64,000 bases of DNA from Luteimonas granuli. GTDB taxonomy: Bacteria > Pseudomonadota > Gammaproteobacteria > Xanthomonadales > Xanthomonadaceae. Below the pieces are notes generated by a model that was not told the DNA's origin, ran no database searches, and worked only from the letters and a program-made list of their open reading frames with translations. Location: assembly GCF_007795095.1 (NCBI RefSeq), contig NZ_CP042218.1, forward strand, positions 620,001 to 684,000, written 5' to 3'. Below, piece by piece: positions 47,615-64,000 of this stretch. Positions within the stretch are counted from its first letter, which is position 1. Every line of letters begins with the position of its first letter. The translations under genes and the position numbers were made by a program.

Positions 47615-47632
47615 ATGACAGCCGGATGACAT
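47615..47632 (-). promoter_or_regulatory. Pho-box-like site
   Basis: On the minus strand ATGTCAT-CCGG-CTGTCAT, two direct 7-base repeats with a 4-base spacer, as in the enterobacterial PhoB box (CTGTCAT-N4-CTGTCAT): 13 of 14 conserved bases. ATGACAGCCGG recurs at 47664-47674, and a CTGTCAC half-site lies on the plus strand at 47703-47709. It sits between the oxygenase (minus) and the lipoprotein (plus). By orientation it faces the oxygenase, but it may act on both. Confidence 0.6.
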
Positions 47633-47829
47633 CCGACGCATTCCGGTCATCGGACCGCCACAAATGACAGCCGGGCGAACAATTCATTTCGATGAAAGAA
47701 AGCTGTCACGGGGGGTCTCTAGGCTTCGTCGCCGAACCATCGGAACGCAGCGGTCGTCGCCCCGCAGGGCGCGCATGGCCGCGGTTCCACCGCTGCGTCC
47801 GCAGTCCATTCCTCCCGGAGACCCAACCG

Positions 47830-49338
47830 ATGTCCACGCGCCACAGTTCCAAGGCCCTCCTCACGACCTTCGGCGCGGTACTCGCGCTCAGCGCCTGCGG
47901 CGGCGGTGCCGACCGCGTCGCCTCGCCCGGCGAGGGTGCGTTCCCGCCGCCGCCGTCCACCACGCCTCCGCCGCCGACCACGCCTCCGCCGCCGACCAGC
48001 CCGCCGCCGACCAGCGGTCCCGCCGAGGGCTGCCCCGCGAACTTCAGGAACATCGGCACCATCGCCGACTTCCGCGCCTGCGAACTTCCGGCGCGCATCA
48101 TCGGCGAGCTCACCGTCCCGAAGCGCGCCGGCACCGTCTACGCCATCAATGGCGCCGTGCACGTCGGCGAGGACATGGGTGGCGATGCCTCCGCTCCGCG
48201 GCCCGGCGCCCGCGAGGGCATCCTCAACATCGAGCCCGGCGTGACCCTGTACGCCTCGGCCGGTCCCGACGCGCTGATCGTCAACCGTGGTTCGAAGATC
48301 TACGCGCTCGGCACCAGGGCGGAGCCGATCATCATGACCGCCAAGATCGACATCGAAGGCGGCGCGGGACCGGAAACCGAAGGGCGCTGGGGCGGCCTGG
48401 TGCTCGCCGGCCGCGCGCCGGTGAACACCTGCATCGGCAACTTCCAGCCCGGCACCGCGCAGTGCGAGACCCGGATCGAGGGCGGTGACCTCGGCATGTA
48501 CGGCGGCAACTCGGAGACCGACAACTCGGGCACCGTCCAGTACATGCAGATCCGCTACTCGGGCTTCGCCTTCTCCGGCGGCAACGAGCTCCAGGGCCTG
48601 ACCATGGGCGGCGTCGGCAACGGCACCACCATCGAGTACGTTCAGGTCCACAACAGCTCCGACGACGGCATCGAGATCTTCGGTGGTTCGGTCAACGGCC
48701 GTTACATCGTGGTCACCGGCGCCAGCGACGACAGTCTCGACATCGACTCCATGTGGAACGGTGCCGTGCAGTTCGGCATCGCGGTCCAGCGCGACAGCAC
48801 GGGCGACAACCTGAACGAGTGGTCCGGCACCAACAGCAGCAATCCCATCCCGCTGACCGCCGCGCAGTACTCGAACCCGCACGTCGCCAACTTCACCTAC
48901 GTCGGTCGCGCCGGCGGCACCAGCGGCAACGGCTCGGGCTTCACCGTCAACCTGGGCACCCGCGCCGAGATCTACAACACCGTGGTCACCCGCAAGGCCG
49001 GCGGCACGGGCAAGGGCCTGACCTGCCTGAGCATCGAGCATCCGGATCGCGGCAGCGCGGCCGTCCTCGAGTCGGTCTTCTTCGCCTGCCCGAACAACTT
49101 CAACAACGCCGCCGCGGAAGCCGCCTTCACCGCCGGCACCAACACCGTCGCGGGCACCTCGACGCTCACCGACGTGTTCGTCAACGGGGCCAATGAGCGT
49201 GCCGTCCCGGCCGCGGCGAACCTGCCGGCCAAGCACAGCTTCTTCCGGCAGGTCGACTACATCGGCGGCGTGAAGGACGCGAACGACACCTGGTGGCAGG
49301 GCTGGACCTGTGGCCTGACGGCCGACACGCCCTGCTGA
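47830..49338 (+). CDS. Surface/extracellular lipoprotein, ElpS-like
   Basis: The 502-residue product has a lipoprotein signal with lipobox LALSAC (Cys23, followed by Gly, so not retained in the inner membrane). Next comes a Pro/Thr spacer of PPPPT repeats (about 39-62), then a Gly/Asn/Ser-rich body that looks like a parallel beta-helix (GTVQYMQIRYSGFAF; GTTIEYVQVHNSSDDGIEIFGG; RYIVVTGASDDSLDID). The place before a TonB receptor and gspC-N matches Caulobacter elpS, a phosphate-starvation lipoprotein secreted by type II. Homology is inferred from context. ATG 47830 has GGAG ten bases upstream. Confidence 0.82.
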   Translation: MSTRHSSKALLTTFGAVLALSACGGGADRVASPGEGAFPPPPSTTPPPPTTPPPPTSPPPTSGPAEGCPANFRNIGTIADFRACELPARIIGELTVPKRAGTVYAINGAVHVGEDMGGDASAPRPGAREGILNIEPGVTLYASAGPDALIVNRGSKIYALGTRAEPIIMTAKIDIEGGAGPETEGRWGGLVLAGRAPVNTCIGNFQPGTAQCETRIEGGDLGMYGGNSETDNSGTVQYMQIRYSGFAFSGGNELQGLTMGGVGNGTTIEYVQVHNSSDDGIEIFGGSVNGRYIVVTGASDDSLDIDSMWNGAVQFGIAVQRDSTGDNLNEWSGTNSSNPIPLTAAQYSNPHVANFTYVGRAGGTSGNGSGFTVNLGTRAEIYNTVVTRKAGGTGKGLTCLSIEHPDRGSAAVLESVFFACPNNFNNAAAEAAFTAGTNTVAGTSTLTDVFVNGANERAVPAAANLPAKHSFFRQVDYIGGVKDANDTWWQGWTCGLTADTPC

Positions 49339-49360
49339 TCCGGGCCTGACGCTCCAAGCA

Positions 49361-49385
49361 GGGGGCGGCCGGAGCGGCCGCCCCC
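49361..49385. other. Strong hairpin between lipoprotein and receptor genes
   Basis: A perfect 11-bp stem GGGGGCGGCCG/CGGCCGCCCCC with a GAG loop, 22 bp past the lipoprotein stop and 43 bp before the receptor start. No T-run follows. It could protect the 3' end of the lipoprotein mRNA or reduce readthrough so that the lipoprotein is made in excess. Confidence 0.7.
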
Positions 49386-49428
49386 ACACCTATGCCCGGT
49401 CCCGTATCCGCATACCCAAGGTCCCACT

Positions 49429-52161
49429 ATGAAGCGCACTCCGTCACGCAGCGGCCTGTCCGTCGCGATCACCACCCTCATCGCTTGCCAGGGCGCGTGG
49501 GCCCAGCAGCCTGAAAGCCCCGGCGGCCAGGTCCCGGTGCCGCCCCAGGCCACGATCGTGCAGGCCACGATGGCCCAGTCGGCCGCAGCGGCCGCGCAGC
49601 CGGCGCCGGAACAGGCGACCCGGCTCGATGCCGTCGAAGTGCGTGGCGAATACATTCCGGAGCCGATGCTGCAGACGGCCGAGGTCTCGTCGTTCGTGAC
49701 CCAGGCCGACCTGCAGCGCACCGGCGACGCCGATGCCGCCGCCGCGCTCGCGCGCGTATCCGGCGTGAGCATCGTCGGCGACAAGTTCGTCTACGTCCGC
49801 GGCCTGGGCGAGCGCTATTCCTCCGCCCTGCTCAACGGCTCCCCCCTGCCCAGCCCGGAGCCCATGCAGCGCGTGGTGCCGCTGGACCTGTTCCCGTCCG
49901 AGGCACTGGAAGGCATGACCGTGCAGAAGACCTACTCGGTCAGGTATCCCGGCGAGTTCGGCGGCGGCGTGATCGACCTGCAGTCGCTGAGCATCCCGGA
50001 AAAATCCTTCTTCAAGCTCAGCGTCGGCGGCGGCGTCAACGACGTCACCACCGGCGAGAAGGGCCTGACCTACTACGGCGGCGGCGACGACGACTGGTGG
50101 GGCTACGACGACGGTACCCGCAAGATGCCGCACGAGCTCCGCAGCGCGATCGCCACCGGCAGGCGCATCGACCGCAACAATTTCAGCAACGAAGAGCTCG
50201 CGAGGATCGGCCGCAGCCTGGAGAACGCCAGCGTCAACGTCCTCCAGGAGAACGACAGCATCGATCCGGACGTCAATTTCGGCTTCAGCGCCGGCTACTC
50301 CGCCGACCTGGGCGACGACGCCCGCATCGGCTTCATCGCCGCCGCCGGCTTCGACAACCAGTGGCGCACGATCTTCGGGGACCAGGAACAGGGCGTGTTC
50401 CTCGGCGCGAACGAGGAGACGCTCTCGTACGCGAAGGACTACGAGTTCCTCTCCACCCGCAACAACGCCCGCGTCAACGCCCTGCTCGGCGCCGGCTACG
50501 CATGGGGCTCGCACAGGATCGACCTGACGACCCTGTACGTGCACGACACCCTGAAGGAAGCGCGCAGCCGCGCCGGCATGGACTACGTCAGCGGCTACGG
50601 CTACCGCGAGGACGACACCCGCTGGTTCGAGCGCGAGATGCTCAACAACCAGATCAGCGGTTCGCACGCCTTCGGCGAGTACGACGACCTGAAGATCGAG
50701 TGGCGCGCCGCCTGGGCCCGCGCGACCCGTGACGTGCCCTACGAGAAGCAGATCGGCTTCCGCGACGAGGGCGACGGCTACTGGGCGTACTCGGTGCGCA
50801 ACCAGGAGAACTTCACGCGCTTCAGCCAGGTCGAGGACGATGTCGCCAGCGGCGGCGTCGACGTCACCTGGCGCCTGCCCGTCGAGCGCGACCTGACGCT
50901 CAGCGCGGGCGCCTCGTACATGGACAACGACCGCAACGCCTGGTCGCGCGAGTTCCGCTTCTTCGCCGGCGACGGCCCCGGCAACGGCGCCCAGCTGCCG
51001 TTCCATTTCCCCTACCAGCGCCCCGACTACCTGTTCTCCGACTACAACCTGAGCCAGGGCTGGCTGAGGCTGGAAGAGACCACGGGCCTGGGCGGCCAGG
51101 CGGCCTACGACGCCACGCTCAAGGTGCTCGGCACCTACGTGCAGGTCGAAGGCGAGATCACGCCCAACCTGCGCGGCACCCTGGGCGTCCGTTACGAGGA
51201 CGCCACCCAGGCCGTGCACCCGTACGACATCTATACCGGCGCCCGCGTGGGCAGCCTGGTCCCGCTCGAGAACGACTATTTCCTGCCTGCGCTCACCCTG
51301 ACCTGGAACGTCGCGGAGAACCAGCAGATCCGCTTCGGCGCCTCTCAGACCATCGCCAGGCCGCAGTTCCGCGAAATGTCGCCGCAGCTGTACACCGACC
51401 CGGACAAGGATCGCCAGATGTACGGCAATCCCTGGCTGGTCGACAGCGAGCTGACCAACTTCGACGCCCGCTACGAATGGTTCTTCGGCTCGGGCGAGTA
51501 CCTCACCGCGGGCGTGTTCCACAAGCAGATCGACAAGCCGATCGAAGCCATCATGTTCACCGGCGGTGGCGACGTGCTCTGGCAGACCTTCGTCAACGCC
51601 CCCGAGGCCACGGTCTACGGTGCGGAGCTGGAGTTCAAGAAGTACTTCGACCTCGGCATCACAGCGGACTGGTGGGGCGACAACCGCCTCTACTTCGCGA
51701 CCAACTACACCTGGTCGCAGTCCGAGGTAAACGCGGACGAGCAGGACACGGTCGCCCTGGACAGCGGCACCGGCCCCACCCAGCCCGCCCGCAGCCTGAT
51801 CCTGGACGGCAGCGAGCTGCAGGGACAGTCGGAGCACATCGCCAACCTGCAGTTCGGCGTCGAGGACACCGAGAAGGACCTGCAGGCCACGCTGATCGCC
51901 AACTACGTCAGCGAGCGCATCTCGGCCCGCGGCAACAACCTGCGCCAGGACCTCATGGAGGAGCCCGGCCTGACCCTGGACTTCGTGCTGCGCAAGACCA
52001 TGCGCTTCGGCCGGACCCCGGTGACCCTGGGCTTCGCGGCGCGCAACATCCTCGACACCGAATACGACGAGTACATCGAGGGCGGCGGCGGCCAGAAGAT
52101 CCACGTGCTGCGCTACGACCCGGGCGTGTCCTACTCGTTCAGCATCTCGACCGAGTTCTGA
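49429..52161 (+). CDS. TonB-dependent receptor paired with the lipoprotein
   Basis: Outer-membrane transporter of 910 residues. It has a signal peptide (ending ACQGAWAQ), an Ala/Gln/Pro-rich stretch, a TonB-box-like LDAVEVRGEY, a plug (VSSFVTQADLQRTGDADAAAALARV; KFVYVRGLGERYSSALLNGSPLPSPEP; GGGVIDLQS) and a barrel ending SYSFSISTEF. A periplasmic-side insert reads GGGDDDWWGYDDG (about 216-228), an acidic/aromatic patch. The VRGLGERYSSALLNG plug is typical of large receptors in Xanthomonadaceae and Caulobacter. With the lipoprotein before it and gsp genes after it, it may import a product released by secreted enzymes. Confidence 0.94.
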   Translation: MKRTPSRSGLSVAITTLIACQGAWAQQPESPGGQVPVPPQATIVQATMAQSAAAAAQPAPEQATRLDAVEVRGEYIPEPMLQTAEVSSFVTQADLQRTGDADAAAALARVSGVSIVGDKFVYVRGLGERYSSALLNGSPLPSPEPMQRVVPLDLFPSEALEGMTVQKTYSVRYPGEFGGGVIDLQSLSIPEKSFFKLSVGGGVNDVTTGEKGLTYYGGGDDDWWGYDDGTRKMPHELRSAIATGRRIDRNNFSNEELARIGRSLENASVNVLQENDSIDPDVNFGFSAGYSADLGDDARIGFIAAAGFDNQWRTIFGDQEQGVFLGANEETLSYAKDYEFLSTRNNARVNALLGAGYAWGSHRIDLTTLYVHDTLKEARSRAGMDYVSGYGYREDDTRWFEREMLNNQISGSHAFGEYDDLKIEWRAAWARATRDVPYEKQIGFRDEGDGYWAYSVRNQENFTRFSQVEDDVASGGVDVTWRLPVERDLTLSAGASYMDNDRNAWSREFRFFAGDGPGNGAQLPFHFPYQRPDYLFSDYNLSQGWLRLEETTGLGGQAAYDATLKVLGTYVQVEGEITPNLRGTLGVRYEDATQAVHPYDIYTGARVGSLVPLENDYFLPALTLTWNVAENQQIRFGASQTIARPQFREMSPQLYTDPDKDRQMYGNPWLVDSELTNFDARYEWFFGSGEYLTAGVFHKQIDKPIEAIMFTGGGDVLWQTFVNAPEATVYGAELEFKKYFDLGITADWWGDNRLYFATNYTWSQSEVNADEQDTVALDSGTGPTQPARSLILDGSELQGQSEHIANLQFGVEDTEKDLQATLIANYVSERISARGNNLRQDLMEEPGLTLDFVLRKTMRFGRTPVTLGFAARNILDTEYDEYIEGGGGQKIHVLRYDPGVSYSFSISTEF

Positions 52162-52203
52162 CGCCCCCGCTTCCCCGCCTCCGGGGAAGCGCGAACACGG
52201 AAG

Positions 52204-52240
52204 AACAGCCGCGCCGGATCCGTCCGGCGCGGCTGTTTCC
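52204..52240 (+). terminator. Intrinsic terminator after the TonB-dependent receptor
   Basis: A perfect 15-bp stem AACAGCCGCGCCGGA/TCCGGCGCGGCTGTT with a TCCG loop, followed by TCC. A second perfect 10-bp hairpin CGCTTCCCCG/CGGGGAAGCG lies just before it (52168-52191). Together they separate the lipoprotein-receptor unit from the gsp operon. Confidence 0.83.
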
Positions 52241-52263
52241 GCGATGCGACCGGAATGTGTCAG

Positions 52264-52302
52264 CTGCAACGAGGCTGTCACGAAAGCTTCGCATGCTGTC
52301 GC
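52264..52302 (+). promoter_or_regulatory. Degenerate Pho-box-like repeats before gspC
   Basis: CTGCAAC-GAGG-CTGTCAC (52264-52281) has 7-4-7 spacing: four of seven bases match in the first repeat and six of seven in the second. A further CTGTCGC follows at 52296-52302, out of exact 11-bp phase. It lies between the receptor terminator and the gspC start, where the gsp promoter must be. Confidence 0.4.
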
Positions 52303-52344
52303 ATCGGCGCGAGCCCCGCGCCAGGACGATCCGCGCACGTGCCC

Positions 52345-53181
52345 ATGTTTCCCGCTTTCCGAGATCCCCACGCGATGCCGGCCTGGCCGGGCGGCCGTGA
52401 CGGGCTCCGGCGCGGCCTCGAGGTCACCATCGTGGTCCTGCTCGCCGTGCAGGCCGCGCGCCTGGCCTGGCTGCTGCTTCCGCCCGCCACCCTGGGCACC
52501 CTTCCCCGCGATGCGGCTCCGCTCGTCCGGCCGCAGCCGGAGCGTCTCGCCATCGACGCCTTCCATCCCGTCCGCAGCCACGTCGCCGCCGCCGATGCGT
52601 CCGGCCTGCGCCTGTTCGCGGTCCGGCCCGACGCCGCCGGCGGCAGCGCCATCCTGGCCCTGCGCGACGGGCCCCAGCGTTCCCACGCGGTCGGCGACGA
52701 AGTGGCGCCGGGCGTGGACCTGGTCGCGGTCGAAGCCGACCACGTGGTGCTCGACAGCGGCGGCCGGCGGAGCGAACTGCGCTTCGCCCGGCCGGATGCG
52801 ACGGCCACGCGCACGGCTGCGATCGCCAGGGCCACGGCTCCCGCCCCGGCGCTCCCACCGTCTCCGTCTCCGTCGCGGGCTGCCGATGCGCCCGGCGCCG
52901 CGATCGACCCGGCGGAGCTCCTCGCCGGAATGGGCCTCAGCCCGGAACGGATCGACGGCCGGATCACCGGCTACACCGTGATTCCCCGCGGCGACGGCGC
53001 CGTCCTGCGCCAGGCCGGGCTGCAGGCGGGCGACGTACTGCTTTCGGTGAACAACGAGGCGCTGGACCCGGAGCGCCACGCCGCGCTCGCCGGAATCCTC
53101 GCCGGCGCATCGACCATCACCCTCACCTATCGGCGCGACGGCCAGGTCCGCAGCGCGACCCTGCAGGCCAAGACACCGTGA
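52345..53181 (+). CDS. gspC: Type II secretion protein GspC (XcsC-like)
   Basis: Inner-membrane clamp that links the secretin to the pump. The 278-residue product has a membrane segment (LEVTIVVLLAVQAARLAWLLL), a periplasmic HR domain (LRLFAVRPDAAGGSAILAL.. VDLVAVEADHVVLDSGGRR), a Pro/Ala/Ser linker, and a C-terminal PDZ domain (YTVIPRGDGAVLRQAGLQAGDVLLSVNNEAL). Starts at 52345 or 52375 are possible. Having a gspC at the head of the operon marks an Xcs-type rather than Xps-type system. Confidence 0.9.
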   Translation: MFPAFRDPHAMPAWPGGRDGLRRGLEVTIVVLLAVQAARLAWLLLPPATLGTLPRDAAPLVRPQPERLAIDAFHPVRSHVAAADASGLRLFAVRPDAAGGSAILALRDGPQRSHAVGDEVAPGVDLVAVEADHVVLDSGGRRSELRFARPDATATRTAAIARATAPAPALPPSPSPSRAADAPGAAIDPAELLAGMGLSPERIDGRITGYTVIPRGDGAVLRQAGLQAGDVLLSVNNEALDPERHAALAGILAGASTITLTYRRDGQVRSATLQAKTP

Positions 53182-55247
53182 ACCAGCGACTCCTCGCCAC
53201 CGCCACCGCCCTCGCCCTCGCGCTGGCGATCCAGCCCGCGCCCTTCGCCTTCGCCCAGGCTCCGGCCGGCGTGACCGCCCAGGACGCCGACATCCGCGCC
53301 TTCATCCAGGACGTGGCGCGCGCCACCGGCATCACCTTCATCATCGATCCCGCCGTGCAGGGCAGCGTCAGCATCACCCGCGACGTGGCCATGGACGAGG
53401 CCGAGCTGCTGGGCGTGCTGCTGGCGGTGCTCCGCGCCAACGGTCTGGTGGCGGTGAGCGCCGGACCCGGCGCCTATCGCGTGGTGCCCGACACGGCCGC
53501 GGCACAGGCGCCGGGCGCCGGGAGGGGCGATTCGGCGTTCACCACCCAGGTGATCCCGCTGGCCACGGTCGATGCGCGCATCGCCGCGGAGACGCTCAAG
53601 CCGCTGGTCGGCCGCGGTGGCGTGGTGACGCCGACGCCACAGGGCAACGCGCTGCTGATCGTCGATTACGCCGACAACATCCGCCGCATCCGCGGCCTCG
53701 TGGCGCAGATCGACAGCGACACCGCCGGCATCGACACCGTGACCCTGCGCAACAGCTCGGCGCGCGAGGTCGCGGCCACGGTCAACCAGCTGTTCGGCGG
53801 CGGCGAGGGCCGCGGCGGCCAGCTCTCGATCCAGCCGGTGGAGGGCAGCAATTCGATCGTGGTCCGCGGCGCGCCCAGCGCCGTGCAGCGCGTGGTCCAG
53901 ACCATCCTCGAGCTCGACCGCCGTGCCGAGCGCACCGGCGGCGTGCGCGTGGTCCGCCTGCAGCACGCCAGCGCCGAGCAGCTGCTGCCGGTCCTGCAGC
54001 GACTGGTGGGCCAGTCGCCCGACGCAGGGGACGACGCCGGCGCGGTGGGCGCCCCGGCCGCCGTTCCCGGAGCAGCCGAGGCGCAGGTGATCACCGCCGT
54101 GCCCGGCAAGCGCCCGACCATCGTCCGCTATCCGGGCGCGAACTCGCTGATCATCAACGCCGACCCCGAAACCCAGCGCCTGCTGGTGGACGTGATCACC
54201 CAGCTCGACGTGCGCCGCGAGCAGGTGCTGGTCGAGGCGATCGTGGTCGAGATCTCGGACAACGCCGCGCGCCGCCTCGGCGCCCAGCTGCTGGTGGCGG
54301 GCAAGGAGGGCAGCAACGTGCCCTTCCTCGCCACCCAGCATCCCGGCGCGGGCACCGGGATCATGCCGCTGGCCGGCGGCTGGTATGCGGAACAGCAGCG
54401 TCGCCGCGACGGCGGGGACGGCGGCGACGACGCCGTCCTGGACGTCGCGCGCCGCGCCGCGGTGCAGTCGCTGCTGGGCATCAACGGCGCGCTCGGCGGC
54501 ATCGCCGGCAGCAACGACAACGCCACCTTCGGCCTGATCATCGACGCGGTGAACAGCGACACCGCCTCGAACCTGCTGTCCACCCCCTCGATCCTGACCC
54601 TCGACAACGAAGAGGCGCGGATCCTGGTCGGCCAGGAAGTGCCGACCACCACCGGCGAGGTTCTGGGCGACAGCAACAGCAACCCCTTCCGCACCATCCA
54701 GCGCCAGGACGTGGGCATCCAGCTCGAGGTCACGCCGCAGATCAACGCCGGCGGCGGGATCACGCTGACCCTGCGCCAGGAGGTGTCGTCGATCGCGGGG
54801 CCGGTGAGCGAGGACTTCTCCGAGCTCGTGCTCAACAAGCGCGAGGTCGAGACCCGGGTCCTGGTGGACGACGGCGAGATCGTCGCGCTCGGCGGCCTGC
54901 TCGACCAGAACGACCGCAACACCGTGTCCAAGGTGCCACTGCTGGGCGACATCCCGATCGTCGGCCAGCTGTTCCGCCACACGTCGCGCTCGCGCGACAG
55001 GACCAACCTCATGGTGTTCATCCGCCCGACCATCGTGCGCAGCACGGCCGACGCGCGGGCGATGAGCGCCGGCCGCTACGGGCACATCCGCAGCCAGCTG
55101 CCGGTGATGGGCGAGCGCGAGAACGCGCTGGACGAGCTGGTGCGCGACTACCTGCGGACTTCGCCGCCGACGATGCCGGCGCCGACCGCCGTCCCGCCGT
55201 CGGTGGAGGCCGCCATCTCCCCTTCCGGCAGCGACGCCGCGCGATGA
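53178..55247 (+). CDS. gspD: Type II secretion secretin GspD
   Basis: Outer-membrane channel of the system. The 689-residue product has a signal peptide (LALALAIQPAPFAFA), the N0-N3 domains (VTAQDADIRAFIQDVARATGITF; LLIVDYADNIRRIRGLVAQID; EGSNSIVVRG), and the secretin barrel (SNLLSTPSILTLDNEEARILVGQEVP; VGIQLEVTPQIN; VPLLGDIPIVGQLFR). GTG 53178 overlaps the gspC stop. No pilotin gene (gspS) is in the window. Confidence 0.96.
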   Translation: MNQRLLATATALALALAIQPAPFAFAQAPAGVTAQDADIRAFIQDVARATGITFIIDPAVQGSVSITRDVAMDEAELLGVLLAVLRANGLVAVSAGPGAYRVVPDTAAAQAPGAGRGDSAFTTQVIPLATVDARIAAETLKPLVGRGGVVTPTPQGNALLIVDYADNIRRIRGLVAQIDSDTAGIDTVTLRNSSAREVAATVNQLFGGGEGRGGQLSIQPVEGSNSIVVRGAPSAVQRVVQTILELDRRAERTGGVRVVRLQHASAEQLLPVLQRLVGQSPDAGDDAGAVGAPAAVPGAAEAQVITAVPGKRPTIVRYPGANSLIINADPETQRLLVDVITQLDVRREQVLVEAIVVEISDNAARRLGAQLLVAGKEGSNVPFLATQHPGAGTGIMPLAGGWYAEQQRRRDGGDGGDDAVLDVARRAAVQSLLGINGALGGIAGSNDNATFGLIIDAVNSDTASNLLSTPSILTLDNEEARILVGQEVPTTTGEVLGDSNSNPFRTIQRQDVGIQLEVTPQINAGGGITLTLRQEVSSIAGPVSEDFSELVLNKREVETRVLVDDGEIVALGGLLDQNDRNTVSKVPLLGDIPIVGQLFRHTSRSRDRTNLMVFIRPTIVRSTADARAMSAGRYGHIRSQLPVMGERENALDELVRDYLRTSPPTMPAPTAVPPSVEAAISPSGSDAAR

Positions 55248-56740: not shown

Positions 56741-57932
56741 GTACTCGGCGCTCGACGTCCAGGGCCGGAGCCGCGAAGGCGTGCTCGATGCCCCCAGCGC
56801 CGGCGAGGCCCGGCGCCTGCTGGAACGCCGGCGCCTGGTGCCGGTCCGGGTCGAGCCCGCGACCGTGCAGGGCGACGGGACGAAGCTCCTGTCCGGCCGC
56901 TTCGGCGCCCGGGACCTGACCCTCCTCACCCGCCAGCTCGCCACCCTGGTGGCGGTCGCGCCGCTGGAGGAAGCGCTGCGCACCATCGGCGGGCAGTCCG
57001 AGCGCGCGCCGGTGCGGCGCGTGGTGATGGCCACGCACGCGCGCGTGGTGGAGGGCTTCCGGCTGTCCGATGCCATGGCGCGCGAACCGCGCGCCTTCCC
57101 GCCGCTGTACCGCGCCATGGTCGCCGCCGGCGAAGGCACCGGCGCGCTGCCGCAGATCCTCGAACGCCTGGCCGACCTGCACGAGCGCGAACAGCAGGTG
57201 CGCGGCAAGCTGGTCTCCGCCCTGGTGTACCCCGCGGCGCTCGCCGTCACCGCGGTGCTGGTGGTGATCGCGCTGATGATGTTCGTGGTGCCGAAGGTCG
57301 TCGAGCAGTTCGAATCCATGGGACGCGAACTGCCGCTGCTCACCCGCATCGTCATCGGCGTTTCGGACGCCTTGGCGACCGGCTGGCTGCCGATGCTGGC
57401 GCTGCTGGCGACCGCCGCCTTCGCCGCCGCGCGCCTGCTGCGCCGGCCCGCGGTGCGCCGCCGCGTCGACGCCGCCCTGCTGCGCCTGCCGGTACTCGGC
57501 CGGATCCTGCGCGACGTCCACGCCGCGCGCATGGCGCGCACGCTCGCCACGATGTCCGAGAGCGGCCTGCCGCTGATCGAGGGCCTGGCGATCACCGCGC
57601 GCACGGTCGGCAACACCGTGCTGCGCGAGGCCACGGAATCGATGGTGGAGGTCATCCGCGAGGGCGGCAGCCTGTCCCGTGCCATGAAGCGGGCGGCGGT
57701 GTTTCCGCCGACGCTGCTCTACATGGCCACCAGCGGCGAGGACAGCGGGCGCCTGGCGCCGATGCTCGATCGCGCCGCCGACTACCTCGAACGCGAGTTC
57801 AACACCTTCACCACGGCGGCGATGAGCCTGCTCGAACCCCTGATCATCATCGTGCTGGGCGCGGCGGTGGCGGTGATCGTGCTCGCCATCCTGCTGCCGA
57901 TCCTGCAATTCAACGCCCTCGTGGCCGGCTGA
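56727..57932 (+). CDS. gspF: Type II secretion inner-membrane protein GspF
   Basis: Platform protein beneath the pseudopilus. The 401-residue product has AFEYSALDVQGRSREGVLDA, DLTLLTRQLATLVAVAPLEEAL, two cytoplasmic GspF domains (YRAMVAAGEGTGALPQILERLA; YMATSGEDSGRLAPMLDRAA) and three membrane segments, the last at AVAVIVLAILLPIL. ATG 56727 lies 14 bp inside the end of gspE. Confidence 0.95.
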   Translation: MAAFEYSALDVQGRSREGVLDAPSAGEARRLLERRRLVPVRVEPATVQGDGTKLLSGRFGARDLTLLTRQLATLVAVAPLEEALRTIGGQSERAPVRRVVMATHARVVEGFRLSDAMAREPRAFPPLYRAMVAAGEGTGALPQILERLADLHEREQQVRGKLVSALVYPAALAVTAVLVVIALMMFVVPKVVEQFESMGRELPLLTRIVIGVSDALATGWLPMLALLATAAFAAARLLRRPAVRRRVDAALLRLPVLGRILRDVHAARMARTLATMSESGLPLIEGLAITARTVGNTVLREATESMVEVIREGGSLSRAMKRAAVFPPTLLYMATSGEDSGRLAPMLDRAADYLEREFNTFTTAAMSLLEPLIIIVLGAAVAVIVLAILLPILQFNALVAG

Positions 57933-58426
57933 TGGAGGCCCCCATGCACCACCGTACCCACCCCTTCTCTCCCTCCCGCCCCGCGCTCCGCGGCGGTGCG
58001 ACCGGACGGCGCCCCTCCGCCGGCTTCACCCTGGTCGAGCTGATGGTCGCGATCGTCATCATCGGCCTGCTGTCGACGGTGGTGATGATCAACGTCATGC
58101 CCAGCCAGGACCGCGCCATGGCCGAGAAGGCGCGCGCCGACATCTCGGTGCTGGAGCAGGCGATGGAAACCTACCGCCTCGACAACATGGCCTACCCCAC
58201 CACCGCGCAGGGGCTTGGCGCGCTGCTCGATCCTCCGGCGGGCCTGGCGCGGCCCGAGCGCTACCGCAAGGGAGGCTACATCCGCCGTCTGCCCGAGGAT
58301 CCATGGGGCAACGCGTACCAGTACCGCCAGCCGGGCCGCGGCGGCGGATTCGACGTGTTCTCCTTCGGGGCCGATGGCGCCGAAGGCGGCGAAGGCGACA
58401 ACGCCGACATCGGCAACTGGCGCTGA
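57932..58426 (+). CDS. gspG: Major pseudopilin GspG
   Basis: Main subunit of the pseudopilus. The 164-residue product has a prepilin site Gly31/Phe32 (SAGFTLVELMVAIVIIGLL) with the mature Glu5, and the GspG pattern YRLDNMAYPTTAQGLGAL, GGYIRRLPEDPWGNAYQY, FSFGADGAEGGEGDNADI. A rather long leader (31 residues) if ATG 57932 is used; ATG 57944 would shorten it by four. Overlaps the gspF stop. Confidence 0.95.
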   Translation: MEAPMHHRTHPFSPSRPALRGGATGRRPSAGFTLVELMVAIVIIGLLSTVVMINVMPSQDRAMAEKARADISVLEQAMETYRLDNMAYPTTAQGLGALLDPPAGLARPERYRKGGYIRRLPEDPWGNAYQYRQPGRGGGFDVFSFGADGAEGGEGDNADIGNWR

Positions 58427-58435
58427 GGCGGGGAC

Positions 58436-58888
58436 ATGCGGCGCGCGCGCGGGTTCACCCTGGTCGAGCTGATGGTGGCGCTGGTCGTCGTCGGCCTGGC
58501 CGGTGCCGCCGTGGCGCTCACGCTGCCGGGGGAGGACGATGCGCTGGCGAAGGAAGCGGGAACCTTCGCCGGCCGCCTGGGCCATGCGCGCGACGAGGCC
58601 ATCCTGGGCATGCGCACCGTGGAGGTGCGGGTGACCGCGGGCGGCTACACCTTCGCGCGCCGCCGCTTCGACGGATGGCAGGCGCTGGACGGCCGCGCCT
58701 TCGCCGCCGTGGACTGGGCGCCGGGGACACGGCCGGAGCTGCCGCGCAACGACGCCGGCATCGCGTTCCGTTTCGACCCCACCGGCGCGACCGGGCCGGC
58801 CAGCCTGGTCCTGGTGCGCGAGGGACAACGGGTGCGGGTGTCGGTGGCCGACGGCGGCGAGGTGGACGTCGATGGCGACCTGCGCTGA
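58436..58888 (+). CDS. gspH: Minor pseudopilin GspH
   Basis: The 150-residue product has a short prepilin leader (MRRARG then FTLVELMVALVVVGLAG), Glu at mature position 5, and a GspH-like beta domain (RDEAILGMRTVEVRVTAGGYTFARRRFDGW). Lies 9 bp after gspG. Confidence 0.9.
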   Translation: MRRARGFTLVELMVALVVVGLAGAAVALTLPGEDDALAKEAGTFAGRLGHARDEAILGMRTVEVRVTAGGYTFARRRFDGWQALDGRAFAAVDWAPGTRPELPRNDAGIAFRFDPTGATGPASLVLVREGQRVRVSVADGGEVDVDGDLR

Positions 58889-59276
58889 GCCGCGCCGGAG
58901 CATGGCCTCCGCGTCATCCGCCGCGGGCTTCTCGCTGATCGAGATGCTGGTCGCGCTGGCGGTATTCGCGCTTGCGGTCCTCGGCCTGCTCAACCTTGCC
59001 GGCGAGAGCACGCGCACCGCCGTGGCGATCGAGGAACGGATGCTGGCGGCGGTGGTCGCGGACAACGTCGCGGTGGACGCCGCCACCCTCGACGTGCGCG
59101 CCCTTGCCGACGACGCGCGCGGCAGCGAGGTGGCCGGCGGCGTCGCGTGGCACTGGACCCGCAGCACCACGCCCACGGCCGACCCGTCGCTGCTGCGCGT
59201 GGACATCGCGGTGTCGCCCGCGGGCGAGGCGCGCGTGGCCGCCGAGGTGTCGCTGTTCCGGAGCCTGCCGCGATGA
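58872..59276 (+). CDS. gspI: Minor pseudopilin GspI
   Basis: The 134-residue product has a prepilin site Gly19/Phe20 (AAGFSLIEMLVALAVFALAVLG) and the short soluble domain of GspI (VADNVAVDAATLDV.. VAWHWTRSTTPT). Part of the pseudopilus tip. Overlaps gspH by 17 bp. Confidence 0.9.
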   Translation: MATCAEPRRSMASASSAAGFSLIEMLVALAVFALAVLGLLNLAGESTRTAVAIEERMLAAVVADNVAVDAATLDVRALADDARGSEVAGGVAWHWTRSTTPTADPSLLRVDIAVSPAGEARVAAEVSLFRSLPR

Positions 59277-59899
59277 GCGCCATCCCCGGGTTCCGAGGCG
59301 CGGCCGCCGGTGGCCAGCACGGCTTCACCCTGCTCGAGGTGCTGGCCTCGCTGGCGATCTTCGGCCTGATCGCCGCCGCCGGCGTCACCGTCATGGCCCA
59401 TGCCGCGGACAGCCAGGGCGTCCTGCGCGAACGCATGGACCGCCTGGGCGAGTTCCAGCGCGCGCGCGCCCTGCTGCGCGCCGACCTGTCGCAGGCCGCG
59501 GTGCGGCTGGTGCGCGGCGCCGACGGCGGCAGCACGCGCCACGCCTTCGTCGGCAACCGCCCGGGCGAGGCCGGTCCGCTGTTCGCCTTCGTCCGCCGCG
59601 GCCTGGACAACCCCGATGGCCTGCCCCGCGCCTCGCTGGAGTACGTCGAGTACCGCATCGTCGACGGCCGCCTGGAGCGCAGCGCGCGCGCGTCCGTGGA
59701 CGCCGCCGTGCCACCGTCGGCGCGTGTGCTGATCGACGGCGTCGGCGATGCGCGCGTCGCCTATCTCACCGGCGACCACTGGAACGACGGCTGGCCCGGA
59801 GGCGCCACGGAACTGCCCGCGGCGATCGAGCTGACCATGGAACTCGACGCGATCGGACAGGTGCGCCAGCGCTTCCTGCTGCCGGGGACCGGGCGATGA
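59273..59899 (+). CDS. gspJ: Minor pseudopilin GspJ
   Basis: The 208-residue product has the prepilin site Gly17/Phe18 (QHGFTLLEVLASLAIFGLIAA) and GspJ features (RMDRLGEFQRARALLRADLSQ; RRGLDNPDGLPRASLEYVEYRI; IELTMELDAIGQVRQRFLL). Tip complex with GspI and GspK. ATGA overlap with gspI. Confidence 0.93.
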   Translation: MSAIPGFRGAAAGGQHGFTLLEVLASLAIFGLIAAAGVTVMAHAADSQGVLRERMDRLGEFQRARALLRADLSQAAVRLVRGADGGSTRHAFVGNRPGEAGPLFAFVRRGLDNPDGLPRASLEYVEYRIVDGRLERSARASVDAAVPPSARVLIDGVGDARVAYLTGDHWNDGWPGGATELPAAIELTMELDAIGQVRQRFLLPGTGR

Positions 59900-60909
59900 G
59901 CCCCGTCCCGACCGGCGCCTGGCCCCTCGTGCGCGACGCGCGCGCCGAACGCGGCGCGGCCCTGCTCACCGTGCTGCTGCTGGTGGCGGTGATGACCGTG
60001 CTGCTGGTGGCGGTGCTCGACGACATCCGCTTCGGCCTGCGCCGCACCGGCAATGCACAGGCGCTGACGCAGGCGCAGTGGTACGCGCTCGGCAGCGAGG
60101 AGCTGGCGCGCGCGCGCATCGCCCGGCTCGACGCCGGGAACGGCCGCACCACGCTCGAGGGCGGCTGGAACGGCCGCCCCTTCGTGTTCCCGATCGACGG
60201 CGGCGCCATGCGCGTTCGGGTGGACGATGGCACCGCCTGCTTCAACCTCAACAGCGTGGTCGAGGGCGCCCCGAACCACTGGACACGGCGCGAGGCCGGC
60301 GTGCGCCAGTACCTGGCCCTCCTGCGCGCCCTGGAGTTCACGCCCGCGCAGGCGGCGACGATGGCCGATGCCCTGGTCGACTGGATCGACAGCGATCAGT
60401 TGCCGGGGCCCGCTGGCGCCGAGGACGCCGCCTACGCCGACCGCGGCCCCGGGCTCCGCACCTCCGGCGCCCTGCTCGCCGAAGCCAGCGAGCTGCGCGC
60501 GGTCGCCGGCCACGACGCCGCCGCCTACGCCCGCCTGCGCCCGCACGTCTGCGCGCTGCCCGATGCCGCGCTGTCGCCGGTGAACGTCAACACCCTGGAG
60601 GCGCACGACGCCGTGTTGCTGACCATGCTCAGCGACGGCGCGCTCGACACCGGGGCGGCCCGGCGCGTGCTCGCCTCGCGTCCGGCCGGCGGCTGGCGCG
60701 ACGTGCCCGCGTTCGCGAGCCAGCCGCTGGTACTCGCCGCCGGCCTGTCCGATCCCGTGCTCGAGCAACTGCGGGTGCGCACGCGCTACTTCAACCTGCG
60801 CACCGAAGTGGAATACGACGGCGCGGAAGTGGTGCTGAGCGCCCTGCTCGACGACGACTCCCAAGGTCCCATGCGCCTGGTGGCGCGACGATGGACACAC
60901 GACGAATGA
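59896..60909 (+). CDS. gspK: Minor pseudopilin GspK
   Basis: Largest tip pseudopilin. The 337-residue product has GAALLTVLLLVAVMTVLLV, with Thr instead of Glu at mature position 5, as usual for GspK/XcpX. The Ca-binding alpha/beta domain follows (FNLNSVVEG; ALVDWIDSDQLPGPAGAEDAAY; LSPVNVNTLEAHDAVLL). ATGA overlap with gspJ. Confidence 0.94.
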   Translation: MSPVPTGAWPLVRDARAERGAALLTVLLLVAVMTVLLVAVLDDIRFGLRRTGNAQALTQAQWYALGSEELARARIARLDAGNGRTTLEGGWNGRPFVFPIDGGAMRVRVDDGTACFNLNSVVEGAPNHWTRREAGVRQYLALLRALEFTPAQAATMADALVDWIDSDQLPGPAGAEDAAYADRGPGLRTSGALLAEASELRAVAGHDAAAYARLRPHVCALPDAALSPVNVNTLEAHDAVLLTMLSDGALDTGAARRVLASRPAGGWRDVPAFASQPLVLAAGLSDPVLEQLRVRTRYFNLRTEVEYDGAEVVLSALLDDDSQGPMRLVARRWTHDE

Positions 60910-62000
60910 ACCACCGCATCCTGTTCCTGCCCGCCGACCCGGCGACGGCGGCCACCTGCCTGGACGTGGACGACGACGGCCGCGTGCTCGCGCGCACTCC
61001 GCTCGCGCCCGGAGCGACCATGCCACCGGTGCCGGCCATGGGGCGCACGGTGCTGGTCGTGGCCGGCGATGCGGTGCGCATCGAGCGCATCGAACTGCGC
61101 GCGCACAGCGCGGCACAGGCGCGGGCGGCGGCGAAGGCCCTGCTCTCCGCACGGCTCGCACGCCCCGCCGAGCTGCACGTCGCCCTCGATGCCGATGCCA
61201 CCGCCGCCGAACGCACCGTGGCTTCGCTGGAGCCGGCGCTGTTGCGCGGATGGCTCGCGCGCGCCGAAGCCTTCGGCCTGCGGGCCGGAGCGGTAGTGCC
61301 GGAGCCGCTGCTGCTGCCGCGCCCTGCCGACGACACGGATCCGGTGCAGGTGCTCGACGCCGGCGACCGCTGGCTGGTGCGCGGCCCGCGGCTCGCCTTC
61401 AGCGCCGCACCGGCGCTGGCCTCGCAGGTGCTGGGCGATCGCCCGCGGACGTTCGTCGAGGGCGGCATCGAAGCCCTGGCCGCGGGCGCCCTGCGCCCCG
61501 AAGTGGATCTGCTGCAGGAGGCCTTCGCCCTCGACTCGGCCCGCGCGCGTCCGATCGCGCGGCGGCGCCTGGCCTGGCTGGCGCTCGCCCTGCTCGCCTC
61601 ACCGCTGGTGCTGGAGGGGGCCCAGACGCTGCGGCTGGAGCTGGCCGCCCGCAGCCTGGACTCCCGCGCCCGGGCGGTGCTGCGCGACGCCCTGCCCGGC
61701 GCGGCGGGCGATGCCGGCGCGCTCGCCCGGCGGCTGCGGGAGGTACGCGAGCCGCAGGTCTTCGCCGCCGCGACCGGTGCCCTGTTCGCCGCCGTCGCCG
61801 CGCGCGCCGGCACCCACCTGGTGGAACTGGAGTACCAGCGCGGCGACCGCGTGCGCGCGGTCGTGTTCCACCCCGGCCCCGACGACATCGAGGCCCTGCG
61901 CGCCGCGCTTGCCGCCGATGGCTGGACCCTCGTCGAAGGCGGCAGCACCGAGACCCCTGGCGGCCTCCGCACCGGCCTGGTCCTGGAGCCCTCGGCATGA
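60906..62000 (+). CDS. gspL: Type II secretion protein GspL
   Basis: Inner-membrane protein that holds GspE at the membrane. The 364-residue product has an actin-like cytoplasmic domain (VLARTPLAPG.. VLVVAGDAVRIERIEL; SLEPALLRGWLARAEAFGL), one membrane segment (RRLAWLALALLASPLVL) and a short periplasmic ferredoxin-like domain. Stop-start overlaps on both sides. Confidence 0.9.
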   Translation: MNHRILFLPADPATAATCLDVDDDGRVLARTPLAPGATMPPVPAMGRTVLVVAGDAVRIERIELRAHSAAQARAAAKALLSARLARPAELHVALDADATAAERTVASLEPALLRGWLARAEAFGLRAGAVVPEPLLLPRPADDTDPVQVLDAGDRWLVRGPRLAFSAAPALASQVLGDRPRTFVEGGIEALAAGALRPEVDLLQEAFALDSARARPIARRRLAWLALALLASPLVLEGAQTLRLELAARSLDSRARAVLRDALPGAAGDAGALARRLREVREPQVFAAATGALFAAVAARAGTHLVELEYQRGDRVRAVVFHPGPDDIEALRAALAADGWTLVEGGSTETPGGLRTGLVLEPSA

Positions 62001-62482
62001 GCGCCCTCGGACGCATCCTCGCGTGGTACCGCGGCCGCGGATCCCGCGAGCGCGCGATGCTGGCAACGATGGCCCTGCTGCTGGCGGCCTTCGCCTGGTG
62101 GTATGGCCTGCTGTGGCCGCTGCGGGCGCTGCGCGACGGCACCGAGGCCCGCCATGACCGCGCCGCCGCGGCGCTGCAGGCGATCGAGGCCGAGGTCGCC
62201 GCGCTGACCGCTTCGGGAGCGGCGGTTCCGCCTCCCTCCGGCGGCGAAGCGCTGCAGCGGCGGATCCTCGACGACGTCCGCGATGCCGGGCTCGCCCCCA
62301 GCCGCCAGCGCAGCGCCGCCGACGGTGCCTTCGTGCTCGAATTCGAGCGCGTTGGCTCTGCGGAACTGTTCGGATGGCTGGGCGGACTGGCCGGACACGG
62401 CCTGGCGCCTTCCTCCCTGCGCGTGGAACGCGCCGACGGCCAGCTGCGCGCCGAGGTCGGCTTCGGCGGGGTGGCGCCGTGA
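61997..62482 (+). CDS. gspM: Type II secretion protein GspM
   Basis: Partner of GspL. The 161-residue product has a cytoplasmic start, one membrane helix (MLATMALLLAAFAWWYGLLW), a coiled segment (ALRDGTEARHDRAAAALQAIEAEVAAL) and a ferredoxin-like end (FGWLGGLAGHGLAPSSLRVER). ATGA overlap with gspL. Confidence 0.88.
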   Translation: MSALGRILAWYRGRGSRERAMLATMALLLAAFAWWYGLLWPLRALRDGTEARHDRAAAALQAIEAEVAALTASGAAVPPPSGGEALQRRILDDVRDAGLAPSRQRSAADGAFVLEFERVGSAELFGWLGGLAGHGLAPSSLRVERADGQLRAEVGFGGVAP

Positions 62483-63178
62483 GCGGCCGGAACCTGGCCG
62501 GGTGGTTCGCGGGCGCGTTCGCGCTCGCACTGCTGCTGGCCGCGCCGCTGCAACTGGTCCTGCCGCGGCTGCCCTTGCCCGCCGGCCTCTCGGCGGCCGA
62601 GGTCGGAGGCAGCCTGGGGCGCGGCCGGCTGCGCGCGGTGCACTGGCACGGCGTCGACCATGGCGATGTCGATGCCGGACTGTCCCCGTTGCCGCTGCTC
62701 ACCGGCCGGCAGCGGCTGTGGCTGCGTGGCGACGACGCGCGACTGGCGCTTGCCGGCGGCCGGCTGCGCGGCCTCGACGGGGGCGACGGCGTGCTGCCTC
62801 TGCCACCGCTGGCCGGCCTGGCCCTGCGCGTCTCGCTCGAGGACGCGCGCCTGCTGTTCGACGACAGCGGCTGCCGCCAGGCCGGTGGCCGGGTCCGGAT
62901 CGAGATCACCCTGCCGGGAGACACGCTGCCACCGCAGCTCCTCACCGGCACGCCGGCATGCGAAGGCCGCACCGGCAGCCTGGTCCTGGTCACGGAGGGC
63001 GCCGGCGGTCCGCTGTGGCTGGGAAGCGACGCTCGGGGTCGAAGCCGACGGCCGCTACACGCTGCAGACCACGGCCCGCAGCGACGACCCCGCGGTGCGT
63101 GCGGCGCTGGTCGCCGCGGGCTTCCAGGAGGCTCCCGGCGGCCTCAGCCGCGTGGACGGCGGACGGCTGGGCGGCTGA
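62479..63178 (+). pseudogene. gspN: Type II secretion protein GspN, frameshifted near its end
   Basis: GspN is an accessory inner-membrane component of uncertain role. From the GTG at 62479 (overlapping the gspM stop) the frame gives LAGWFAGAFALALLLAAPLQLVL, LPAGLSAAEVGGSLGRGRLRAVHW and GGPLWLG. At about 63021-63024 (GGGAAGCG) the frame is lost. The displaced frame gives EATLGVEADGRYTLQTTARS and AGGFQ-like GFQEAPGGLSRVDGGRLGG, then stops at 63178. The span is one base over a multiple of three; GG instead of GGG would give an intact ~232-residue protein. Confidence 0.85.
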
Positions 63179-63232
63179 TTGCAGGAGGTCGCGGGAGCCC
63201 ACCGGGGGCGCGCTACACTGCGCCCCCCGAAT

Positions 63233-63250
63233 GTGACAGGACCGCGACAT
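63233..63250 (-). promoter_or_regulatory. Degenerate Pho-box-like repeat before the porin gene
   Basis: On the minus strand ATGTCGC-GGTC-CTGTCAC, with 7-4-7 spacing; six of seven bases match in one repeat and four of seven in the other. It lies directly before the porin ATG and downstream of a TACACT box (63214-63219), an awkward place for activation. Weak evidence alone. Confidence 0.3.
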
Positions 63251-63254
63251 CCCC

Positions 63255-64000
63255 ATGAAACTTTTCATGCTCCCCGTCATCCTGGGTGCGGCCTGCTGCC
63301 TGCCTGCGCGCGCCGAGATTCCGCTCGGAACGGTGGCCGGCTCGGACCTGGCGTTCGAGGGGATGTTCCAGGTCGACGGCTACCGGTTCGACAACGACGT
63401 CCTCGATCTTGACGGCCGCGCCGACGGCCGCGACCGCGCCACCGGCGTCCGTCGCCTCGAACTCGTGCTCAAGGGCAGCGGGCCCCGCGGACTGTCCTGG
63501 GTGCTGGGCTACGACGCCGAGAACGAGAGCTATCTCGACAACAACCTGTCCTGGAGCTTCGGCGGCGACGGCGCGGCGACCCATACGCTGCTGGTCGGCC
63601 AGTCGAAGCAGCCCAACAGCATGGAAGAGCTGTCCTCGAGCAGGAACAACGACTTCATCGCCAAGGCGGCCGCCACCGGCACCTATGCCGTCGGGCGCCG
63701 CCTGGGTGCGTCCTGGAGCTACGACGCCGGCAGCCACGGAGCCACGGCGGGATGGTTCGGCCGCAACCTCGACAATGAGGTGCACGGAGCAGGCTACGGC
63801 CTGCGCACCTGGTGGGCGCCGGTGAAGGGCGACGGCCGTGTGCTCCACCTGGGCCTGAGCCACGTCGGCCGTGACACCGAGGACGACCGGCTGCGCCTGC
63901 GCGCGCGCCCCAACGCCGACTTCGCGCAGCGCCTGGTCGACAGCGGCACCCTGTCCGACGTCGACCGCCTGGCGACCACGGGCGTCGAAGCACTGTGGAT
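63255..64000 (+). CDS. OprP/OprO-type porin, N-terminal part (runs off the window)
   Basis: The 248 codons seen encode a signal peptide (LFMLPVILGAACCLPARA) and the start of a beta-barrel. The pattern GVRRLELVLKGSGPRGLSWVLGYDAENESYLDNNLSW followed by LLVGQSKQPNSMEELSSSRNNDFIAKA resembles the phosphate-selective porin O and P family (there GQ.K.P...EEL.SS). The family includes pyrophosphate/phosphate channels, but members also carry other ligands. It begins 76 bp after gspN. No stop is reached before base 64000. Confidence 0.8.
   Translation, partial: MKLFMLPVILGAACCLPARAEIPLGTVAGSDLAFEGMFQVDGYRFDNDVLDLDGRADGRDRATGVRRLELVLKGSGPRGLSWVLGYDAENESYLDNNLSWSFGGDGAATHTLLVGQSKQPNSMEELSSSRNNDFIAKAAATGTYAVGRRLGASWSYDAGSHGATAGWFGRNLDNEVHGAGYGLRTWWAPVKGDGRVLHLGLSHVGRDTEDDRLRLRARPNADFAQRLVDSGTLSDVDRLATTGVEALW

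Follow-up and report, generated by a model that had tools for sequence, protein, structure and literature searches.

A candidate PhoB-controlled phosphate-acquisition island in Luteimonas, built on an ElpS, receptor and type II secretion core of the Caulobacter type

The window analysed here is a 64-kb stretch of the Luteimonas granuli genome (G000:C1:620001-684000, whose numbering is used throughout); the genome measures 2.92 Mb (2917 kb), lies in one contig and is about 90% complete. From position 46742 the window carries a 2-oxoglutarate (2OG)-Fe(II) oxygenase gene on the minus strand followed, on the plus strand, by genes for a lipoprotein, a TonB-dependent receptor (TBDR), a type II secretion system (T2SS; gspC-N) and an OprP/OprO-type porin. 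A GT4 glycosyltransferase, a PAP2 phosphatase and rlmJ come directly after the porin, beyond the window end. We propose, with a probability of about 0.7, that in Luteimonas and its relatives this cluster is a PhoB-controlled phosphate-acquisition island standing on the ElpS-TBDR-T2SS core known from Caulobacter. Judged from its sequence, it is very likely that the cluster is PhoB-regulated and has a phosphate function; the odds on the detailed division of labour among its products, set out below, are about even. A preliminary description of the window had named the lipoprotein, receptor, gspC-N, porin and a Pho-box-like site, and all of these are present, with the genes on the plus strand and the tight overlaps between the gsp genes that it described.

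PhoB boxes were sought as consensus matches to two CTGTCA(T/C) repeats of 7 bp with a spacer of 4, giving 14 scored positions, with the consensus taken from general knowledge. The motif alone is weak, since the whole genome holds 18 sites with at most 2 mismatches against 11 for the backward control motif. Four of the 18 lie within a 17-kb block, at the starts of the lipoprotein, gspC, porin and GT4 genes, where about 0.1 would be expected (Poisson 5e-6 for at least 4 sites, in a region that was chosen because of one such site). At most 1 mismatch is found in six sites, including the one at the lipoprotein (47615-47632, minus strand, 13/14), and the genome-wide scan thus bears out the Pho-box-like site of the preliminary description as real and more than chance. 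Two of the others precede pstS, by 78 bp and by 673 bp, the latter without a clear gene in between; two more stand 46 bp before a DUF47/PHO4 transporter pair and 50 bp before phoB. Pfam confirmed the gene names PHO4 transporter, phoU, phoR, ppk and ppx. The sixth (L102:6906; G000:C1:1816905), near the start of a DUF3106 protein, is unexplained.

The sites recur in relatives. Of 100 related genomes, 25 encode a near homologue of the lipoprotein (E < 1e-100), and 22 of these loci were fetched at 20 kb each, the other three being too near contig ends. Across the window and these 22 relatives, 33 of the 52 matches of at least 12/14 fall in four promoter slots that make up 3.9% of the bases, where 200 permuted motifs gave a mean of 0.7 and a maximum of 10 matches, relatives within one genus not being independent. 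The slot between the TBDR gene and gspC holds such a box in 8 of the 23 loci. With two 7-bp repeats, a spacer of 4 and conservation across relatives, the sites have the form expected of a PhoB regulon, to which the cluster would belong. The best box is directed towards the 2OG gene and not the lipoprotein, which seems to have its own weaker site some 127-139 bp upstream, also seen in close relatives. For gspC the start at 52375 is preferred because the box at 52264-52281 lies upstream of it; this gene probably starts near 52375 and gspN near 62479.

The order lipoprotein-TBDR-gspC is kept in all 22 fetched relatives, and gspC to gspM follow in order in each, save that gspL was undetected in L054. 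Downstream of the cluster lie pst genes in nine, GT4 in 12 and neither in one. In one relative (L055:17705-19998) two tandem pstS-like genes lie downstream, the second found by tblastn and the first by eye. A wider set of 80 named loci, the best 80 of 550 retrieved via one conserved peptide pattern and therefore biased to proteins carrying it, has the lipoprotein and TBDR together in 77, gspD within 10 kb in 29 (some loci being cut by contig ends) and a gene resembling prolyl 4-hydroxylase (P4H) in 19. Genes of the pst, pho or pit type lie within 10 kb in 11 of the 80, L124 being counted for nothing more than a PhoB-like regulator and L143 for genes resembling pit, ppk and ppx; a further four have a ppk match alone. 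A box of at least 12/14 stands upstream of the lipoprotein in 24 of the 77, against a mean of 0.9 and a maximum of 7 for 100 permuted motifs. The preliminary description would have been abandoned had homologues of the cluster never stood near phosphate genes; pst genes follow it in 9 of the 22 relatives, and 11 of the 80 named loci have phosphate genes nearby.

The ElpS-like β-helix protein and the receptor are a recurrent pair in Alpha- and Gammaproteobacteria. Among the 80 named loci just 29 have gspD within 10 kb, some loci being cut by contig ends, which suggests that the pair can function apart from the secretion machine. The 18 order-level loci gave no T2SS match and have the pair mostly in reverse order; phoR, pst/phoU, ppk-ppx or an OprP-type porin lies near the pair in four of them (L059, L061, L074, L075), and a box of at least 12/14 lies 587-776 bp upstream of the match start in eight.

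The T2SS is complete, every gene of the gspC-N set matching its Pfam family over the cut-off. Its GspE is 72-73% identical to that of two Xanthomonas loci (L107, L115) and 67-69% identical to that of four Caulobacteraceae loci (L108, L111, L114, L128); other GspE-like ATPases of the same genome reach at most 52%. Since GspE is nearer to Xanthomonas and Caulobacteraceae than to its own paralogues, we assign the system to the Xcs type, additional to other systems in the genome, an assignment that goes by pairwise GspE identity and gene order. GspE (498 aa) has an N1E domain at 9-72 and T2SSE from 106, in a domain scan without a separate N0 model; absence of the N0 domain in GspE is given as an Xcs feature in PMC2585010. 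The TBDR resembles the TonB-Xanth-Caul model, below that model's cut-off, and has no sequence relative in the PDB at E 0.001.

The reading frame of the lipoprotein is open from 47692, and the start that gives the lipobox (LSAC) is 47830. The protein is built of a signal peptide with this lipobox, a Pro-rich linker and a right-handed β-helix core, and a C..SPG motif at the lipobox cysteine is found in 60 of 74 lipoproteins. It has a lipobox, a mass of about 50 kDa and a place directly upstream of the TBDR gene and gspC, as in the ElpS definition taken from PMC2996285. No family in Pfam or NCBIfam matched it, and the only PDB entry found by sequence at E up to 1 (0.26) was a weak, unrelated match and was set aside. 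For the 443-aa core an AlphaFold2 model, built on a 50-row alignment, reached a mean predicted local distance difference test score of 93.4. Fold searches put the core among the right-handed parallel β-helices, with a best Foldseek E of 9e-4 at low template-modelling scores and, in a second search, phage tailspikes and carbohydrate enzymes at a Z of about 23, with no specific relative. As these searches gave the general β-helix alone, no function was taken from the fold. Within the core runs a near-invariant acidic motif, DDG(I/F/V)E(I/F/W)FG ... DD..D, in which D219, D220, E223, D241 and D245 (core numbering) are invariant in 50 of 50 sequences and D242 is kept in 48. Its conservation in the named loci is partly due to selection, because part of the motif served as the search pattern, though relatives in a second alignment, found without the pattern, keep it too. 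It would seem to be a ligand or metal site. In the Xanthomonas arboricola locus (L107:10001-10660) the lipoprotein frame is broken at 219 aa; L115, the other Xanthomonas locus, has it open.

By sequence the porin belongs to the OprP/OprO family, with E 1.6e-64 for Porin_O_P; a sequence search of the PDB gave Porin P and Porin O, in a match spanning residues 179-377 of 380, so that it shares both a Pfam family and a PDB match with the Pseudomonas OprP/OprO porins. These porins are selective for phosphate or polyphosphate and have an arginine/lysine ladder. In 18 of the 22 relatives an OprP-type match adjoins the T2SS end, in two sequence types and two orientations: after gspN on the same strand in 11, as another OprP-type match on the opposite strand in seven (a type checked individually in one example), and with none found in four. 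GT4 is not specific to the cluster, since the search matched in 100 of 101 genomes; it is also found no more than 3 kb from the lipoprotein in G062, G069, G074 and G090. Its upstream 160 bp hold a box of at least 11/14 in 23 of 30 fetched loci, against 42 of 750 background windows, and in 15 of the 30 the boxes form an 11-bp tandem near -76 and -65. GT4-PAP2 with its PhoB-like repeats is possibly a general phosphate-sparing lipid pathway.

In the mechanism that we propose, PhoB would turn on the lipoprotein, the Xcs-type T2SS, the porin and GT4-PAP2 when phosphate is short. The lipoprotein would be lipid-anchored, and the T2SS would display it on the cell surface or release it, possibly along with secreted hydrolases. 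Its β-helix may bind or process a phosphate-bearing ligand via the acidic motif, and the TBDR, as constant partner, would import this ligand or what is made from it. Through the OprP-type porin freed phosphate would pass into the periplasm for PstSCAB, while GT4 and the PAP2 phosphatase would spare phosphate by making sugar lipids. The preliminary description had likewise proposed a dedicated system that would release phosphate from organic matter and take it in through receptor and porin; that reading is partly supported, by the PhoB boxes and by the recurrent genomic bond with phosphate genes.

Several observations weigh against it. L046, one of the 22 relatives, has neither pst nor GT4 downstream, and five of the 22 (L044, L046, L048, L050, L054) have no box of at least 12/14 anywhere in their 20 kb. 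GT4 lacks a box even at 11/14 in six of the closest loci (G003, G007, G013, G018, G044, G050). In the two Xanthomonas loci nothing better than 10-11/14 turns up 5' of the lipoprotein or between the TBDR gene and gspC, and the sites scoring 12-13/14 overlap the end of the TBDR gene, so that for Xanthomonas itself the proposal depends chiefly on gene order. The pst operon and phoB of the Luteimonas genome lie far from the cluster: of the phosphatase, pst or phoBR genes that the preliminary description hoped for past position 64000, the PAP2 phosphatase is there, whereas pst and phoBR are elsewhere. In Caulobacter the TBDR was found to be constitutive and ElpS was reported to be surface-exposed without the T2SS (PMC2996285). 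The PhoX and PhoD families were not found in this genome (about 90% complete; DING-type phosphatases were not searched for), and neither of its two alkaline-phosphatase-family genes has a box of at least 12/14 in the fetched stretch, the best being 11/14 at L190. A secreted phosphatase was therefore considered and set aside as T2SS cargo, and we name no cargo. The L190 gene (L190:5723-7408) encodes a member of the alkaline phosphatase family whose signal peptide is lipobox-like, possibly a surface protein or T2SS cargo; the second gene is an open frame of ordinary length.

The T2SS could instead be a second system of general use that exports degradative enzymes, with the PhoB boxes serving neighbouring genes. 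This would fit the other GspE-like ATPases of the genome, the description of the Caulobacter T2SS as constitutive (PMC2996285) and the T2SS that L046 keeps without downstream pst or GT4 and without boxes. We regard it as improbable: the TBDR-gspC gap has a box in the window and its slot is filled in 8 of 23 loci, a 2024 study puts the Caulobacter T2SS in the PhoB regulon (PMC11208175), and the lipoprotein-TBDR-gspC order is constant in 22 of 22 relatives. It is likewise quite unlikely that the lipoprotein and TBDR take up a glycan or a metal such as iron and are merely co-regulated by phosphate stress. The nearest folds are carbohydrate-active β-helices and phage tailspikes, and the receptor resembles the broad TonB-Xanth-Caul group, but the β-helix fold is common to many unrelated functions, and pst, phoBR, phoU, pit and ppk recur as neighbours, in a count that left out iron and glycan genes.

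A further alternative concerns the lipoprotein, which may be a secreted hydrolase of the phosphatase or nuclease type with a catalytic acidic motif. The six acidic residues conserved across two motifs (D219, D220 and E223; D241, D242 and D245) would suit such an enzyme, though we think it somewhat unlikely given a protein that has no Pfam or NCBIfam match and no convincing sequence relative in the PDB.

The oxygenase gene, divergent to the lipoprotein, raises a separate question. The best PDB relatives of its protein are two P4H (E 1e-29 and 1e-28), which we take to be those of Chlamydomonas and Bacillus. Compared with two close relatives the gene misses about 95 bp near its 3' end, and the Pfam profile is covered over 79 of 98 positions in the window and 98 of 98 in the two relatives. 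Because the C-terminus is truncated, the distal His/Lys part is absent in the window strain, which thus lacks the full P4H set of HxD, distal His and following Lys/Arg; the C-terminal stretch that is replaced in the window is present in the relatives aligned. An orthologue (E < 1e-90) exists in 24 of the 25 relatives with a near lipoprotein homologue and in none of the 75 others, and the truncation and the missing orthologue of G044 are apparently a recent loss in a sub-lineage. A linker that counts as Pro-rich (7 or more Pro in 25) is found in 19 of 19 named loci with a linked P4H versus 27 of 55 without (Fisher 2e-5, over the 74 of 80 loci with a usable N-terminus and ignoring kinship). Among 33 genomes of our choice, from 61 without a linked P4H, a strong match (>200 bits) occurs in 9 of 13 with the linker versus 2 of 20 without (Fisher 7e-4); the lineages are not independent.

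It is nevertheless rather doubtful that the P4H-like enzyme, intact in relatives, hydroxylates the Pro-rich linker, which would keep the ElpS-type lipoprotein at a distance from its lipid anchor, and was lost recently in the window strain. Counting against it, the window copy is without its C-terminal catalytic part; G044 has no orthologue yet keeps the linker; L143 and L154 have a strong P4H and no Pro-rich linker; and L119, L181 and L186 have the linker without a P4H, with L155 having a weaker match alone. A box was found for 1 of 17 unlinked P4H-like genes and 11 of 40 linked ones, the latter often sharing the lipoprotein promoter region. Our literature search on a prolyl hydroxylase link found nothing relevant. 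We treat the association as a lead and not a result; if true, it would be a phosphate-starvation-linked hydroxyproline modification on a bacterial surface lipoprotein.

Table 1. Positions of the cluster genes and PhoB-box-like sites, in window numbering.
Feature	Position	Strand	Remarks
2OG-Fe(II) oxygenase, prolyl-4-hydroxylase-like, divergent to lipoprotein	46742..47566	-	PF13640; C-terminus truncated
PhoB-box-like direct repeat, 13/14	47615..47632	-	shared 2OG/lipoprotein promoter region; slot conserved in relatives
Half-site CTGTCAC, 127 bp 5' of lipoprotein start	47703..47709	+	position matches site in close relatives
ElpS-family lipoprotein, 502 aa	47830..49338	+	lipobox, Pro-rich linker, β-helix core
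TBDR, TonB-Xanth-Caul-like	49429..52161	+	Plug and barrel domains over cut-off
PhoB-box-like repeat, 12/14, between TBDR and gspC	52264..52281	+	conserved slot
gspC	52375..53181	+	PF11356; open from 52255, scanned as 52255-53181
gspD secretin	53178..55247	+	TIGR02517 over cut-off
gspE ATPase with N1E domain	55244..56740	+	TIGR02533 over cut-off
gspF	56727..57932	+	TIGR02120 over cut-off; scanned as 56616-57932
gspG major pseudopilin	57944..58426	+	TIGR01710 over cut-off; scanned as 57932-58426
gspH	58436..58888	+	PF12019
gspI	58872..59276	+	TIGR01707 over cut-off
gspJ	59273..59899	+	PF11612
gspK	59896..60909	+	NF037980 over cut-off
gspL	60906..62000	+	TIGR01709 over cut-off
gspM	61997..62482	+	PF04612
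gspN	62374..63258	+	PF01203
PhoB-box-like repeat, 12/14, just before porin, within gspN end	63233..63250	-	opposite strand to porin
OprP/OprO-family porin	63255..64397 (window ends 64000)	+	PF07396; PDB Porin P and O
PhoB-box-like repeat (outside window)	64407..64424	+	upstream of GT4
GT4 glycosyltransferase (outside window)	64484..65635		downstream of porin
PAP2 phosphatase (outside window)	65613..66164		downstream of GT4

Lying 5' of the window (L005; G000:C1:600984-614572) are two very large genes, of 2672 and 1836 aa, whose starts by eye resemble non-ribosomal peptide synthetases.

The ElpS-TBDR-T2SS core of the cluster is already known. In Caulobacter crescentus elpS (CC0170), the TBDR gene CC0171 and gspC-N have the same order as here and a link to phosphate: PMC2996285 reports that ElpS is induced by phosphate starvation, that its release is T2SS-dependent, probably by a protease, and that X. 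campestris, Sphingomonas alaskensis and Hyphomonas neptunium share this gene organisation, and PMC11208175 includes the T2SS and various TBDRs in the PhoB regulon of Caulobacter. The preliminary description, in holding that the joint regulon is not well described, therefore overstated its case, and the organisation already reported in X. campestris reduces the novelty further. The same order is seen in Caulobacteraceae loci of Phenylobacterium and Brevundimonas (L108, L111, L114, L128), to which our lipoprotein is 46-49% identical, a figure that is not for CC0170 itself. Unlike Caulobacter, where gspO follows in the opposite orientation, Luteimonas has the Pro-rich linker, the divergent P4H-like gene and, after gspN, the OprP-type porin and GT4-PAP2.

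The Xcs system of Xanthomonas likewise has its twelve genes C-N in one block, with a TBDR and hypothetical genes upstream, and is without a reported role in the accessible part of a 2008 comparison, which considers that it may have no connection with disease or may not function at all (PMC2585010); a 2024 study describes it as dispensable for leaf degradation and virulence (PMC10769872). The Luteimonas system differs from it in having PhoB boxes and, in relatives, pst adjacency. No phosphate link of Xcs was found in our searches of open-licence literature, including the available parts of PMC2585010, PMC10769872 and PMC11981180, and a search on phosphate-limited TBDR with β-helix proteins gave nothing beyond PMC2996285.

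What is new would be the PhoB link of an Xcs-type system in the Xanthomonadaceae, as predicted from sequence, together with the extension by porin and GT4-PAP2, the adjacency to pst and the association with P4H. The Hxc system of Pseudomonas aeruginosa is also a dedicated phosphate-regulated T2SS, with a cargo and a gene order that differ from the Luteimonas cluster. The PhoB boxes and the pst neighbours in relatives give Xcs a testable role, phosphate acquisition, and a secretion machine without an assigned purpose in related plant bacteria would thereby be tied to phosphate scavenging.

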